From a virus, in IMG/VR virus record IMGVR_UViG_3300017692_000004, positions 1 to 32,315 of that record: 32,315 nt of DNA; one strand, 5' to 3'. How positions within the stretch are numbered: position 1 is the stretch's first letter; every line of letters starts with the position of its first letter. The notes beneath the pieces were generated by a model. The model searched no databases. It was not told where the DNA came from and saw only the letters and a list, made by a program, of their open reading frames with translations. This document shows, one piece after another, positions 17,318-32,103 of the stretch. Both the position numbers and the translations under genes were made by a program.

Positions 17318-18066
17318 CAGGCGGCCTTTAGCAGATCGTCGAGGTTCGCGATCAGTGTGGTTCGGCTCGGGTTGCCGCGTGGGCGCGCGCCGGCCAACTT
17401 CTCAATCTCATCCTTGAGATCGCTATCGCTCATGTCCTCGTACCCGACTGGCAACTCGGGCTCAACTTCCTGCAGAACGTGCGAAAGCGGCGCTGCCGAC
17501 AGATCAACGGCCTCCCCGCGAAGTTCGGCCAGCTGTCGCTTCAGCTCGTTTAGTTCGGTCTGCTGGGTCGAGCCGTCACGGCGCGCATCCATGTAGCGCT
17601 GTGCCATGGGCTTGAGATCGTTGCCGTGGATGCCGAGACGCTTGACGCCTGGACCTTCCAAGTGCGCCATCTGCTCGATGGAATAGATGTTGAGCGCGCG
17701 GCAGATCGAAAGCTGGGCCTGACTGATGCCGTAAGGTAGAAGCTCTTCCAATGGCGTGCCTTCCGCCTGCTGCTCGGAGCCGGCCAGAAACGCACCGTAC
17801 TGATCCTTGTAGCGTTCGGCCCACGTGATGATGCGCCCGGTGCCCTCGTCGATCGTGCACTGCTCATCGACGCCGAAGATCGGCTTGTACTGCGGGTTCG
17901 CCGGGAAGCGGATTTCCACCACAGCCTTCAGCTCGAACACCTGCTTGCCCTGCAAACGGCTCTGCGGCTCGTTGAAGATATTGAGGTACTTGAAATACGG
18001 GGTGCTGGGTGCGTAGCGCTCGCCAGGAATGCGCATCTCTTCGCGCGGAATCTCAGACCACTGCAT
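17317..18066 (-). CDS. hypothetical virion-module protein with coiled coil and SAP/HeH-like tail, 249 aa
   Basis: A 249-residue protein. Residues 1-100 (MQWSEIPREEMRIPGERYAP, ELKAVVEIRFPANPQYKPIF) look like a small beta-rich domain. Residues about 125-150 (EQMAHLEGPGVKRLGI) resemble a helix-hairpin-helix-like segment. Residues 170-190 (TELNELKRQLAELRGEAVD) are a short coiled coil. The last 45 residues (EDMSDSDLKDEIEKLAG and NPSRTTLIANLDDLL) resemble an SAP/HeH-type DNA-binding motif. Genes with this arrangement are found between capsid and adaptor genes in many podoviruses, usually unnamed. Start ATG 18066 has GAGGTAATTT directly upstream. It is preceded by a stem-loop at 18088-18106. Confidence 0.6.
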   Translation of the reverse strand: MQWSEIPREEMRIPGERYAPSTPYFKYLNIFNEPQSRLQGKQVFELKAVVEIRFPANPQYKPIFGVDEQCTIDEGTGRIITWAERYKDQYGAFLAGSEQQAEGTPLEELLPYGISQAQLSICRALNIYSIEQMAHLEGPGVKRLGIHGNDLKPMAQRYMDARRDGSTQQTELNELKRQLAELRGEAVDLSAAPLSHVLQEVEPELPVGYEDMSDSDLKDEIEKLAGARPRGNPSRTTLIANLDDLLKAA

Positions 18067-27881: not shown

Positions 27882-28271
27882 TCACTTGGCGTCAGAGGGC
27901 GTGTCACCAGCGATCTGCCGGTCAAGCCAAGCATCCAGTGCCTTCACGGCCTTGCCAGCGGTGGGTGTGTTGATGAGATCTTCGCCCATCTCGGCAGCAG
28001 CAATCGCATAGATCGTGTTGCGCCCAGGAATGAACGAGGCCACCAAAGCCGCTGCGATCGCAACCGGGAAGAAGCCTTTGCCGGCCTTCCAACCCGTGGA
28101 CAGGCAAGGCCGCTTGTTACGCTCACCAATGTTATCGAAGTCGGTCTTCGCCGCGATGGCGACCACAGCGACAGCGCCACCTATACCTGCGCCAACAGCC
28201 ACAAGCGTTGCCACGGTGGAAACACTACCCGCGACATCAGCGAGATAGATCATCCAGGATAGATTGTTCAT
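27882..28271 (-). CDS. hypothetical membrane protein, 129 aa, two to three hydrophobic segments
   Basis: A 129-residue protein (MNNLSWMIYLADVAGSVSTV). Hydrophobic segments lie at about 20-42 (VATLVAVGAGIGGAVAVVAI) and about 69-95 (GFFPVAIAAALVASFIPGRN), separated by a basic loop (DFDNIGERNKRP). A possible third lies in the AIAAAEMG part. The C-terminus (KALDAWLDRQIAGDTPSDAK) is a soluble helix. No family recognised. ATG 28271 overlaps the stop of a candidate small gene upstream (ATGA), and the leader lies next to the repeat region. An inner-membrane role, perhaps tied to replication or superinfection, is speculation. Confidence 0.6.
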   Translation of the reverse strand: MNNLSWMIYLADVAGSVSTVATLVAVGAGIGGAVAVVAIAAKTDFDNIGERNKRPCLSTGWKAGKGFFPVAIAAALVASFIPGRNTIYAIAAAEMGEDLINTPTAGKAVKALDAWLDRQIAGDTPSDAK

Positions 28272-28447
28272 CGTTCGGTTCCTTTGATGCCTGCTTGGGT
28301 GGTGGAGAAGGTGGCGAGGATTCCGACCAAAACCGGGGCGAGCCGAGCCAAGAGGCGACGCCCCGGATAGTACGTAGTACTAGGGGCACACAATGCCGCA
28401 GCTCCCGCACTACCTCCCGCAATGATTTCAAGCACTTGCAAGCTCAC
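28268..28447 (-). CDS. candidate 59-aa membrane peptide starting in the iteron array
   Basis: An open frame ends in TGA at 28268-28270, overlapping the next ATG at 28271 (ATGA), as real genes do here. Going upstream it runs through hydrophobic segments (AGGSAGAAALCAPSTTYY and LLARLAPVLVGILATFSTTQ). The start is not certain: GTG 28447, GTG 28435 and TTG 28465 all follow a GGGAGG that is part of the repeated TGCGGGAGGT units, which would act as the ribosome site. The coupled end and two hydrophobic stretches favour a gene. Against it are the short length and the repeat overlap. If real, its translation start is built into the repeat. Confidence 0.4.
   Translation of the reverse strand: MSLQVLEIIAGGSAGAAALCAPSTTYYPGRRLLARLAPVLVGILATFSTTQAGIKGTER
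28333..28366. repeat. inverted repeat, 8-bp arms, 18-nt loop
   Basis: CCGGGGCG at 28333-28340 and CGCCCCGG at 28359-28366 are perfect complements. On either strand this could form a stem-loop or cruciform. It lies next to a second inverted repeat and to the iteron array, inside the candidate small gene. Termination downstream of the primase-helicase gene is an alternative reading, though no U-run follows. Confidence 0.45.
28360..28387. repeat. long imperfect inverted repeat GCCCC-TAGTAC-GTA-GTACTA-GGGGC
   Basis: TAGTAC (28368-28373) and GTACTA (28377-28382) pair around GTA. GCCCC (28360-28364) and GGGGC (28383-28387) extend the stem with a 3-nt bulge. This gives 11 paired positions per arm with an AT-rich centre in an otherwise GC-rich region. 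It shares its left arm with the preceding inverted repeat, so only one of the two can form at a time. Confidence 0.5.
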
Positions 28448-28521
28448 CTCCCGCACCTCCCGCAAATACCTCCCGCAAGCGATTACAATGACTTACGAGG
28501 TCACCTCCCGCACCTCCCGCA
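28401..28521. repeat. iteron-like array: six ACCTCCCGCA units plus one variant; candidate replication origin
   Basis: Exact copies of ACCTCCCGCA begin at 28412, 28446, 28455, 28468, 28503 and 28512; a variant GCTCCCGCA is at 28401-28409. Units at 28446/28455 and 28503/28512 are fused tandems sharing one A, and each pair is preceded by TC, making two identical 21-bp blocks 57 bp apart. AT-richer spacers (ATGATTTCAAGCACTTGCAA; GCGATTACAATGACTTA) lie between. Together with the inverted repeats at 28333-28387 and the adjacent primase-helicase gene, this resembles an iteron origin of a phage or plasmid. The span 28448-28555 holds no gene that I can support. All units point the same way. Confidence 0.6.
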
Positions 28522-28555: not shown

Positions 28556-30847
28556 TCACTTTGCAGCCAGGCCGAGAACCGGATGACGGTCCCTGCCAGT
28601 CCAAAGAGGTTGCGATGCTGACAGCTTGTCGAGCGTGAAAAGGCGCTCCATGGCACGCTTCAAGGAAGCCATTCCGACGCCCTTTGCGTCAGGCATCGCG
28701 GCCATGACCTTGGGTGCGTAATGGGCCACATTCGGGGCGTGTGAGACGTGCCGGCGCTGCTGGGTCAGCTTCTCAAGCAAGTGCAGGAACAAGGCGTTCT
28801 CGTTAGCTGCCTGGACAGTTTCGCGCTGAACACTGGCCGTGCCTTCGGGAATTTGATCAGACGCGATGAAGGCACCCTGATACCAGGTGAACGCCACCTC
28901 GGCGCCGCGCTGAGAGTAGTTCGCCTTTTCGTTGCGGAGGACTCGCTTATCCGGATCATGAGGCACGCCGTCGTCGCCCTTTGGCACCTCCAAGTACAGC
29001 CGCGAGCGGACTTGGTTCTCCCAAGCCGTGGACCCGGAATAGCTGTCGCCCGCCTTGTTGGGGTGGCCGACCATGAGCACGCTGCCACCAATCACTTGCG
29101 CGATCCGGTTGTTTAGGTTGACGTATCCTGCGACCTGGTGCCGATCGTTCTCGTTGCCGGCGAACGTGTGCGCGGTGTTGTCGATCGTGACATCCTGGAT
29201 GCCGTAAGCCTCGCACGTGCGGATTAGGCGATCGTACAGGGGGCCGACAGTCATCGTTCCGTCCGGCGCGAACATCGCCAGCTCGTTGCCGATCTCACCC
29301 TGTAGCGAGAGCAGATAGAGCTTGCCGTTCAGGGACTCAGGATCGACGCCGAGCAAATCGCATATCGCCAGCTGTCGGCGATGCAGCTCCTCAAGGTCAT
29401 CCTCGCACGTGATGTATAGGGTTGGGCATTGCTTGGTCGCTATGCCAAATAACGGCAGGCCGAGCGCCGTGCACGTCGCGCGCTGCTGGCTGAACAGCGA
29501 CTTGCCCGCCGCGCCGGCGCCTGTAAGAAGCGTTGCCTGCCGGTCTGGGATGAAATCTTGCCAACGCCACTCACGAGCGGGGGCGATGCTGCCCTGCCAC
29601 TCTGCCGGATTGAACACTGGCAAAAGGTCGGGATCTCCGACTTTTTCAGCAGCAGACGGCTCGACGAATTCGCCCTGCTCGTCGCCATAATCCGGCATAT
29701 CCATGATAGGGTCGCCGGTCTCAGGGTCGTAACCCTGTTCGTCGGCTGATGTGTAACTGTAGCGCTCTGGCTGCGGCATACCTGCCTTACGCTCGGCGTG
29801 AAGCTGGCGGTGCGCGGCCTTGTGATTGCCCTTGTGCTCGTAGTGCACATACAGGTCGTACGCGTCGCCGAAGCACCCGGACTTGCACCGCGCGCCAACA
29901 CCGGCCGCAGCGTCCGACATGGAAAGGCTGACCCACGCGTCACCCATGATCCGGGTCGCGTAGCTGTCGCCCTCCTGATAGCCTGACTTCCAGTCCTCAC
30001 CGTGACGTGGGCTCTGCGAGTAGCCATAGAGTTGCAGAAGGTTGGCGATCGAGTTGGAGCGATTGAAATCCTCCATGATCGACACGCCCTCACTCGGGTC
30101 GCGCGGACGCGCAGCCTTTCGAGCCTCAGCGTCACGACGCATGGCCTCGCGCGCACGGTCGTCCTCGGCGCGCTTGCGGCGGATGGCATCAATGCCGGCA
30201 CCAAGGGCACCACGATCAAGGCGCAGGCCGGCAGAGGTGCTGCCAGTGGTCGCACGCTCATAGAAGATCGGATCGCCGCGACCATCGCGCAGGGGCTCGC
30301 CGGACTTGGTGTGGATCTCCGGAACGTTTGGGAGATAGACAGGCTGGGCGGCTCGATCGAGTGCGCGGTCGACCGGCACGCCACCGACCTCCAAGAAATT
30401 GAAAAGGGCGTTCTGCGCGTCGTGCCAATCGCCAAAGGACACCGGTGCATCGAGCGGCATCACGACACGCCAGCGCTTGTCACCGGGGCGGGAGTGAGCG
30501 CTGCTGTAGATCAGCCAGGCGCAATTCTGCGCGAAACCGCGGACAAGGCTTTCGATGCGCGCGAGCGGGTGATCGCCTTTATCGATGTCGACGCATAGGG
30601 CGACGTACTCGCCTTTGGCACGCTGTACTGCATGCTCGCGACCGTCAAAGTCGTGATATGACGAAGGGATAAACGCCCAACCTTCTCCCTTGGGCTTGTT
30701 CTCAGGCTCCATATGGAAAAGCGAAGCCAGCGGGCGCGTCTCGTAGTCGTCGCCCGTCTTGATATGCGTGTCGAACTGGCCAGCAAAAACCAGCACCGAT
30801 CGGCGGTTCCATTGTGGGCCGACAGCCGTAAGCGGGGAACTGTTCAT
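28556..30847 (-). CDS. primase-helicase (archaeo-eukaryotic-type primase-like N-terminus, RepA-like AAA helicase C-terminus)
   Basis: A 763-residue replication protein. Residues about 55-210 look like a PrimPol-type primase: CVDIDKGDHP at 85-94 gives the acidic D-x-D pair, YSSAHSRPGDKRWRVVMPL at 114-132 the strand with basic residues, and DRALDRAAQPVYLPN the third conserved region. A central region with CKSGCFGDAYDLYVHYE follows. Residues about 415-680 are a RecA-type ATPase of the AAA_25/RepA group: Walker A GAGAAGKS at 443-450, TLYITCEDD, DVTIDNTAH with Walker B at 552-560, and VLMVGHPNK at 590-598. It would prime and unwind phage DNA. A RepA-like initiator-helicase next to iteron-like repeats fits origin-linked replication. 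Start overlap ATGA with the 59-aa gene. Confidence 0.82.
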   Translation of the reverse strand: MNSSPLTAVGPQWNRRSVLVFAGQFDTHIKTGDDYETRPLASLFHMEPENKPKGEGWAFIPSSYHDFDGREHAVQRAKGEYVALCVDIDKGDHPLARIESLVRGFAQNCAWLIYSSAHSRPGDKRWRVVMPLDAPVSFGDWHDAQNALFNFLEVGGVPVDRALDRAAQPVYLPNVPEIHTKSGEPLRDGRGDPIFYERATTGSTSAGLRLDRGALGAGIDAIRRKRAEDDRAREAMRRDAEARKAARPRDPSEGVSIMEDFNRSNSIANLLQLYGYSQSPRHGEDWKSGYQEGDSYATRIMGDAWVSLSMSDAAAGVGARCKSGCFGDAYDLYVHYEHKGNHKAAHRQLHAERKAGMPQPERYSYTSADEQGYDPETGDPIMDMPDYGDEQGEFVEPSAAEKVGDPDLLPVFNPAEWQGSIAPAREWRWQDFIPDRQATLLTGAGAAGKSLFSQQRATCTALGLPLFGIATKQCPTLYITCEDDLEELHRRQLAICDLLGVDPESLNGKLYLLSLQGEIGNELAMFAPDGTMTVGPLYDRLIRTCEAYGIQDVTIDNTAHTFAGNENDRHQVAGYVNLNNRIAQVIGGSVLMVGHPNKAGDSYSGSTAWENQVRSRLYLEVPKGDDGVPHDPDKRVLRNEKANYSQRGAEVAFTWYQGAFIASDQIPEGTASVQRETVQAANENALFLHLLEKLTQQRRHVSHAPNVAHYAPKVMAAMPDAKGVGMASLKRAMERLFTLDKLSASQPLWTGRDRHPVLGLAAK

Positions 30848-31023
30848 GCTGCTTTCAGCTCCAGCACCGCAATCCAGTCCTCGGCCTCGCGATCGGACAG
30901 ATGCCCGTGCTCGCGCGCGATCAGGATGCGTTGTTTCTGTTCGTGCGGATTGCCGGCCTCAGCCTCGATCAGGCGCAGCACCAGACGGCGCGCGACATCG
31001 TTGAGGGTGAGGCTGGCGCTCAC
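30844..31023 (-). CDS. hypothetical protein, 59 aa, helical
   Basis: A 59-residue protein from GTG 31023, which overlaps the nuclease stop as GTGA. The frame extends to 31065, but that would overlap the nuclease gene by 46 nt without reason. Sequence (SASLTLNDVARRLVLRLIEA, then REHGHLSDREAEDWIAVLEL) predicts three helices. A short spacer between nuclease and primase-helicase genes, it may be an accessory of either. No family recognised. Its stop is coupled to the primase-helicase start (ATGA). Confidence 0.6.
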   Translation of the reverse strand: MSASLTLNDVARRLVLRLIEAEAGNPHEQKQRILIAREHGHLSDREAEDWIAVLELKAA

Positions 31024-31499
31024 TGCATCTTGCCTTTGATGGGAGCACCAAGCTGCCGCAGCCATTCGATGGCGCTGCGAGCGGAGAAGAAGCAGGCAAC
31101 GCGATGGCCTTGGCGTGTCAGCCGGTTGCCGAACTCGATCTGCTGGCGGGTCAGCGAGCCAGCCTTGCCGCCGGAGAAGCCCTTAAATTCAATCATTGCC
31201 ATGGTGGCGGGGCAATCTGGGTGCGCGTGCGCGATGCCCCAGGTTACCAGCGTGTCGAAGGCGCCGGCGACCATGCCCTCTTGCTTTGCCTGGCGCTGAG
31301 CCTTGAAGCCTCGCTTGGCCGCATTCGGAATGGCGGCGACCACCATGTGCGGGCAAACCTTCTTCATGAAGCCAACGAACTGTGACTGCCGCTCGAGCTC
31401 GCCCAGGTCCCGACGCGGATCGGCCAGCGCTTTCCAGTCCTCGACCGGGAACAGCGGCTTTTCGTCGAGCGGCGTTTCGAGATCATCCCACATTGTCAC
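31020..31499 (-). CDS. VRR-NUC domain nuclease, 159 aa
   Basis: A stand-alone VRR-NUC (PD-(D/E)xK type) nuclease. The conserved elements run in order: ERQSQFVGFMKKVCPHMVVA with Glu37, AIPNAAKRG at 57-64, GMVAGAFDTLV with Asp82, MIEFKG at 102-107 with Glu104 and Lys106, then LTRQQIEFGNRLTRQGHRVA. These match the VRR-NUC family, which includes phage endonucleases and the FAN1 nuclease domain. In phages it is probably a structure-selective DNase for recombination or replication intermediates. GTG 31499 overlaps the upstream stop (GTGA). ATG 31493 is an alternative. Confidence 0.85.
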   Translation of the reverse strand: MTMWDDLETPLDEKPLFPVEDWKALADPRRDLGELERQSQFVGFMKKVCPHMVVAAIPNAAKRGFKAQRQAKQEGMVAGAFDTLVTWGIAHAHPDCPATMAMIEFKGFSGGKAGSLTRQQIEFGNRLTRQGHRVACFFSARSAIEWLRQLGAPIKGKMQ

Positions 31500-31708
31500 G
31501 CCCCCGCCCTCCGCTCAACCGCATGCTCAAACGTACTGCGGATCATGCCCACCGGCAGGTTGTGGCGCTTGGCGAACGTCTCGGCGGTGTGTCCGTCGAT
31601 GAGCTCGGCCACGCGCTCGGGCGTCGCCATGATGAGGCGGGTGCAAAGAGCCGTGGCGCGGTCCTCGCGCGTGCGGGTCTGCGATTGGGGGGCGTGGCGG
31701 GGCCTCAT
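31496..31708 (-). CDS. hypothetical protein, 70 aa, HTH-like C-terminus
   Basis: A 70-residue basic protein from ATG 31708 (MRPRHAPQSQTRTREDRATA). The start overlaps the DnaA-like gene's stop as ATGA, while an in-frame start at 31777 lies deep inside that gene and is rejected. The C-terminal half (ELIDGHTAETFAKRHNLPVG, MIRSTFEHAV) fits a helix-turn-helix in which HNLPVGMIRSTF would be the recognition helix. A DNA-binding helper of the replication module is likely by position, but no family was matched. Confidence 0.55.
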   Translation of the reverse strand: MRPRHAPQSQTRTREDRATALCTRLIMATPERVAELIDGHTAETFAKRHNLPVGMIRSTFEHAVERRAGA

Positions 31709-32103
31709 GCGGCCACGTCCAACGGCCAGGCTTCGTGCCAGCGATGCTCTTCGTCCGAAGGGGCAAAAGCGAAGCAAACCGTGGGCTGCCAGCCCGTGTC
31801 ACTAACGAAGCTGCCTGCGCTAACGACATTTTCGCGCAGGGCGTCGACAAAGGCGGGCAGCTGTGGGTAGATCACGGAGTAGCGGTCAAGGCCTCGGTAA
31901 ACCGCAATGATGCTGGAATGGTCGCGACCCGCCATAGCACGGCCGATCGCCGGGTAGCTGTAACGATGCTCTCGCGCGATCGTGTAGATGGCGCTGCGGA
32001 CGGCGCTAAACCTGCGGCAGCGGATCGCGCCGTATAGCGCCTCTTCCCGCATGCCGGTCATTCTCGCCGCGACGGTGACGAGGTCTGCAACCCGAGCCCT
32101 CAC
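31705..32103 (-). CDS. stand-alone DnaA domain IV-like DNA-binding protein, 132 aa
   Basis: A 132-residue protein from GTG 32103, which overlaps the previous stop as GTGA. Residues 1-80 match the DNA-binding domain IV of DnaA: VADLVTVAARMTGMREEALY, VRSAIYTIAREHRYSYPAIG and AGRDHSSIIAVYRGL, where GRDHSS is the signature that reads the DnaA box. The AAA+ ATPase part is absent, so it cannot open DNA itself. The last 50 residues are unrelated and Trp/Pro-containing. Such single domains occur in phages of alphaproteobacteria as DnaA-like repressors or decoys (recollection). Its target, whether phage iterons or host DnaA boxes, is open. Confidence 0.85.
   Translation of the reverse strand: MRARVADLVTVAARMTGMREEALYGAIRCRRFSAVRSAIYTIAREHRYSYPAIGRAMAGRDHSSIIAVYRGLDRYSVIYPQLPAFVDALRENVVSAGSFVSDTGWQPTVCFAFAPSDEEHRWHEAWPLDVAA

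Follow-up and report, generated by a model that had tools for sequence, protein, structure and literature searches.

A candidate replication origin with short iterons beside a primase-helicase gene in a phage genome

The locus and its features

The window is the whole stretch of 32,315 nucleotides analyzed here (viral record IMGVR_UViG_3300017692_000004), a linear and possibly incomplete record for which the collections searched contained no near relative. A compact array of short direct repeats is placed about 35 bp beyond the stop of a gene encoding a 763-aa helicase (28556-30847, minus strand), between this stop and the next gene (27882-28271, minus strand). Two hairpins follow on the far side of the array. 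The features are listed below.

28556..30847, minus strand: primase-helicase-winged-helix protein of 763 aa, candidate initiator (Pfam, profile and AlphaFold)
30218..30847, minus strand: AEP (PrimPol-like) domain, residues 1-210, with invariant D87xD89, S115 and D160 (fold match)
28853..29590, minus strand: RecA-fold helicase core of the RSF1010 RepA type, residues 420-665 (PF13481, E 1.4e-28; 1g8y)
28556..28780, minus strand: predicted winged helix, residues 690-763, the proposed iteron reader (AlphaFold model, covariation with the unit)
28400..28521, plus strand: iteron array, the variant AGCTCCCGCA at 28400 and six exact copies of ACCTCCCGCA, which read TGCGGGAGGT in the helicase sense
28420..28437, minus strand: AAGTGCTTGAAATCATTG, a conserved box in the spacer that differs from AAGTCATTGAAAACATTG at 3 positions; the other strand is the IHF-like TTTCAAGCACTTG
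28477..28494, minus strand: AAGTCATTGTAATCGCTT, a weaker box of the same kind, 57 bp from the first and differing from the 18-mer AAGTCATTGAAAACATTG at 5 positions
28368..28382, minus strand: hairpin TAGTAC-TAC-GTACTA past the array; loop conserved and stem re-paired in relatives
28333..28366, minus strand: GC-rich hairpin CCGGGGCG...CGCCCCGG, arms at 28333-28340 and 28359-28366

The window also encodes a phrog_824 protein (31020-31499, minus strand), which many relatives likewise have immediately upstream of the helicase (L105-L115, L120; sequences used for comparison carry L numbers). A nuclease function is possible, because the corresponding region of Roseobacter phages codes for a putative PDDEXK endonuclease.

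The repeat array

The exact copies of ACCTCCCGCA start at positions 28412, 28446, 28455, 28468, 28503 and 28512, all on the plus strand, and no further exact copy occurs elsewhere in the 32-kb window. With up to one mismatch, nine matches are counted against a shuffle mean of 2.6, and nine was reached in none of 100 shuffles. The fused pairs have a 9-bp tandem spacing within the pair and 57 bp between pairs, and Tandem Repeats Finder reports a higher-order unit of 57 bp present in 2.2 copies (score 173). The six exact copies and one variant in a single direction, as well as the two fused pairs 57 bp apart, had been noticed in the original prediction and are both borne out. The region 28400-28521 has the several near-identical and closely packed direct repeats of an iteron origin. 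Cumulative GC skew, proposed as a check at the same time, was uninformative and gave no pointer to the array; the raw curve has its minimum at 30001 and the detrended curve at 17547.

For the window's own array, IMG/VR yielded no close DNA relative. An exact search of the same collection with the doubled unit returned 18 matches, mostly in coding-like sequence and none near such a helicase. Rfam gave no match.

The adjacent primase-helicase

Pfam assigns the helicase core to AAA_25 (PF13481, E 1.4e-28). A profile built from 40 relatives retrieves RSF1010 RepA (1g8y, E 6.3e-27) as the best solved structure, and in the full AlphaFold model (pLDDT 84.6) residues 444-664 align to RepA with a Z score of 20.4, against 15.7 for the next family. 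The hexameric RepA-type helicase of RSF1010/IncQ is the best match by both sequence and structure. Residues 1-230, modelled alone (pLDDT 94), match the PrimPol of cyanophage S-2L (Z 10.1) and RSF1010 RepB' (Z 8.0). The RepA-like core, together with the N-terminal AEP fold, supports the RepA-like primase-helicase that had been proposed as the neighbour of the array.

The C-terminal residues 690-763 are predicted to form a winged helix, judged by modelled secondary structure alone, with helices at 711-716 and 726-738 and wing strands at 742-750 and 756-762 in the AlphaFold model. The N-terminal module varies among relatives, being an AEP, a Toprim (L110, phage WO) or a PF09250 Prim-Pol domain (L242), or absent (L113). 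Despite this exchange of primase modules, the array keeps company with the helicase core.

Conservation of the array across helicase loci

A single-sequence search found no close helicase relatives, and an alignment query was required. The alignment-based search gave 80 viral loci and 22 loci from bacterial genomes, largely sphingomonads, many of which are prophages or fragments; the loci of the Roseobacter phages and of phage WO were taken from the phage collection. Arrays were scored by repeated 8-mers per 200-bp window in 50 non-redundant helicase clusters. In 41 of the 50 clusters, against 4.0 expected, the highest-scoring repeat window anywhere in the locus is the one at the 3' end of the helicase gene, so that adjacency to the initiator gene, a property of iteron origins, is conserved in relatives. 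Scores of at least 20 were obtained in 36 of 50 helicase 3'-end zones and in 3 of 460 background zones. Relatives that conserve the helicase and lack the repeat had been named in advance as evidence against an origin; the opposite was seen, with arrays in the same place in 41 of 50 loci. Nine clusters have no top-scoring array in this zone, and two of the loci (L192 and L199) nearly reach it. In L129-L131 and L144 the zone scores only 3-6 and the densest repeats are found about 0.5-2.7 kb downstream.

Arrays at the 3' end occur in the Roseobacter phages CRP-831, 811, 823 and 821, in sphingomonad prophages, in Acidiphilium, in others, and in the Wolbachia phage WO. The repeat unit is uniform inside each array and different between phages: TGCGGGACG in L105, GGCGGAAGT in L109, GCACCGACC in L113 and L122, GCACAAAGT in L125 and GCGCCAACC in L119, L120, L123 and L127, with ACTACAAAAAC as a further example. 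The four Roseobacter phages carry two different words at largely corresponding positions of a 175-187-bp gap. In phage WO, direct and inverted repeats of the AAGATGGCA type run from the RepA stop codon on and are followed by an AT-rich palindrome; this region (L185 4160-4430, KX522565) is a candidate WO origin.

Three further observations concern the position of the repeats relative to the gene. In a helicase subgroup (L129-L133, L232, L233, L245) the repeats or the spacer box are placed about 1.3-2.8 kb downstream and not at the gene end, which suggests a moved origin. In many sphingomonad elements (L112-L127, L187-L202) the helicase frame runs on through the array and would encode a proline/threonine-rich tail. 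In a Novosphingobium element (L190) an in-frame stop interrupts the helicase homology; the gene looks decayed and the array persists.

The spacer box and the hairpins

The AAGTCATTGAAAACATTG box is found between the iterons of many arrays, abutting an iteron. In the window and in most relatives its complement is one mismatch away from the IHF consensus WATCAANNNNTTR; in L105, L122 and L205 the match is exact. With the box as the sole query, 80 loci were obtained, of which 42 have a short-repeat array; in several, the gene of a RepA-type helicase ends 60-520 bp upstream. The box is present in many IMG/VR contigs of this set (L211-L290), often within arrays of quite different words, such as ATGTTCC in L266, AATGTAACA in L280 and TTACTGGAGCAG in L250, and in some of these contigs no RepA-type helicase was detected nearby. 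Phage origins in general may share the 18-bp AAGTCATTGAAAACATTG element as a host-factor box.

The two inverted repeats beyond the array had been described as mutually exclusive. Both exist, but the exclusivity does not hold for their cores: the palindrome at 28360-28387 contains the core TAGTAC-TAC-GTACTA, and only its outer arms clash with the CCGGGGCG/CGCCCCGG repeat. In the minimum-energy fold of the single-stranded DNA (-15.7 kcal/mol, z -3.6) the hairpins at 28368-28382 and 28333-28366 stand side by side.

A short hairpin just beyond the array is shared by relatives. Its stem changes in sequence, from AT-only to GC-only, yet stays paired, and its loop is TAC, TAAA or TTTA. Among 51 loci these loops were counted 14, 14 and 4 times, with 0.16, 0.05 and 0.06 expected, and in control stretches each was seen in 1 of 150. 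The significance of the loops rests on shuffles and on these control stretches; an arm permutation was set aside as biased, since the hairpins had been chosen as hairpins. GC-rich hairpins resembling the one at 28333-28366 also follow in L105, L119, L120 and L113.

Covariation of the repeat word with the C-terminal domain

In 26 loci, the similarity of the repeat units was compared with the similarity of 12-column protein windows, the similarity of the ATPase core being held constant. Untrimmed C-terminal similarity may take in array-encoded residues of the read-through frames, and the trimmed analysis is the one relied on. Two peaks of partial correlation with a dip between them were obtained, about residues 700-718 and 740-763, with values of 0.45-0.53 at residues 697-718 and 0.45-0.56 at residues 743-763, and values in the ATPase core were mostly near zero. 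For the wing residues 740-760 the partial r with unit similarity is 0.55, a value reached in 0 of 10,000 permutations. L113 and L127 illustrate the pattern: their cores have a similarity of 0.94, and their wings (RGPNRVMKQGI versus KGSNRHWKVGI) and units (GCACCGACC versus GCGCCAACC) differ. Likewise, 27 of the 29 residues separating the two unit groups of the Roseobacter phages fall in residues 601-750, the last 150.

Because the array lies right next to the DNA for the winged helix, recombination linkage could contribute to the covariation, and the linkage of neighbouring sequences is a serious alternative explanation for part of the signal. No tracking of the unit is seen for the hairpin loop beyond the array (partial r 0.05, p 0.24). 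This argues against plain physical linkage, as does the dip between the two peaks. The covariation supports the reading of the iteron word by the helicase's own C-terminal domain.

Alternative roles of the array

The computed features comprise the array, its conserved position, units that are uniform within an array and different between phages and that covary with the C-terminal domain, the conserved hairpin and the folds of the protein. On these features, the region 28333-28521 is very probably a phage replication origin, at which the initiator encoded by the adjacent gene would bind the iterons of about 9 bp through its own C-terminal winged helix.

An unlikely alternative is that the array is an operator, or an incompatibility or partition-like cluster, for the initiator or a repressor, serving the control of expression or copy number instead of being a start site. 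Repeats by themselves do not distinguish an origin from such regulatory roles, and plasmid iterons act in copy control too. Nevertheless, the array lies 3' of the helicase gene, and several sphingomonad elements have it inside the open frame of that gene. A search for a sigma-70-like promoter at the array found none, and none of the ORFs searched was recognised as a ParB or a repressor. The conserved hairpin also favours an origin over a regulatory cluster.

About equally improbable is an origin at which some protein other than the helicase reads the iterons, such as a host factor or the product of the small ORF at 31705-32103 (minus strand), which matches only the DNA-binding domain IV of DnaA (Bac_DnaA_C, E 1.7e-8). 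A precedent is RSF1010, which binds its iterons with a separate RepC. The unit, however, covaries with the winged helix of the helicase itself, and among helicase loci a DnaA-like ORF was found only in L105, which leaves the earlier suggestion of the DnaA-like protein as a binder without support.

A packaging site of the pac or cos type, bound by the small terminase, is more doubtful still. Some pac sites typically contain repeats, and in the window terS and terL follow the array, the small terminase gene being about 1.6 kb away. The closest terminase relatives, L023 (84% TerL identity) and L024 (82%), have no such helicase and no dense array upstream of terL; array scores at this position are 6-11 in the terminase relatives and 69 in the window. 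In CRP-831 the array adjoins the helicase gene, with seven genes and about 4 kb between it and terS. The lack of an array in terminase relatives without the helicase and the distance of the CRP-831 array from terS together make a packaging site unlikely.

RNA-level signals, either Shine-Dalgarno-like sites or a terminator, are scarcely credible: TGCGGGAGGT resembles a ribosome site and the hairpin of L111, which is followed by a T-run, fits a terminator, but units of relatives such as GCACCGACC and ACTACAAAAAC are not Shine-Dalgarno-like, so that the second use as a ribosome site once suggested for the repeat finds no support, and the T-run is missing after the window hairpins, as is any constancy of stem composition among relatives.

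Comparison with known systems

The replication origin proposed here shares with the oriV of RSF1010 (IncQ) the RepA-matching core (Z 20.4, E 6e-27) and iterons beside hairpins; the AEP domain resembles RepB' in fold (Z 8.0), though S-2L PrimPol scores higher (Z 10.1). It differs in having primase, helicase and DNA-binding domain in one polypeptide and units of about 9 bp, the iterons of RSF1010 being of about 20 bp. Instead of the separate repC initiator and separate primase gene of IncQ plasmids, a single 763-aa protein holds all three domains. IncQ replicons use ssi hairpins as primase start sites; in the phage loci a hairpin is conserved, and priming on it would be the counterpart. The alpha protein of phage P4 is likewise a primase-helicase initiator with iterons; unlike the window protein it has an SF3 helicase, and the iterons of the ori-crr system are placed at two separated sites.

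In SaPI Rep and SCCmec Cch2, which have been likened to the D5-type helicase family, the C-terminal domain of the helicase recognises short iterons directly downstream of its own gene (PMC7581432). The window arrangement resembles SaPI Rep/ori and Cch2 in the iterons directly 3' of the helicase gene and in a primase that is fused or encoded nearby. It is unlike them in belonging to tailed phages, in the conserved hairpin and AAGTCATTG box, and in a helicase core of the RecA-fold RSF1010-RepA type and not of the D5/SF3-type AAA+ class. The different helicase fold places the system outside the SaPI Rep family, and its single fused protein places it outside the IncQ replicons.

In pRN1 ORF904 and Bordetella phage BIP-1, a primase-helicase with a winged helix is accompanied by a functional or proposed origin stem-loop just 3' of the gene, and the iteron structures of BIP-1 were found not to be its origin (PMC4234260). 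Both differ from the window in their SF3 helicase and in a stem-loop of about 100 nt, the window hairpin being short. By analogy, SaPI Rep and Cch2, as well as pRN1 ORF904 with its downstream stem-loop, may be regarded as functional analogues.

Proposed mechanism and significance

For binding, unwinding, priming, the role of IHF and origin activity, we infer the following course. The initiator would contact the iterons of about 9 bp through its C-terminal winged helix, and the hexameric helicase domain of the RSF1010-RepA type would thereby be loaded and the duplex opened near the adjacent hairpins. The N-terminal AEP domain, or the other primase modules in relatives, would then make the first primers, perhaps on an exposed hairpin. 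The conserved AAGTCATTG box between the iterons is probably occupied by IHF or another DNA-bending protein.

It is somewhat favoured, with considerable room for doubt, that the locus represents a widespread class of tailed-phage origins in which one protein is primase, helicase and iteron reader, roles for which RSF1010 has three proteins. Such origins would combine an iteron word that varies with a host-factor box that stays constant and a hairpin whose loop is conserved, and the winged helix would act as a readable recognition code; the Wolbachia phage WO and the Roseobacter phages would be included. In the open-access papers searched, no description was found of this combination, its breadth, the recognition-code pattern or its presence in phage WO.

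If true, membership of this class would place the origins of the Wolbachia phage WO and of the Roseobacter phages, and it provides a general rule by which origins can be located from sequence in many uncultured phages as well as in phage WO. Natural variation would also link an initiator domain to its DNA word. Through this link, origin specificity and the possible incompatibility of co-infecting phages would become testable by exchanging about 75 residues or the 9-bp unit.
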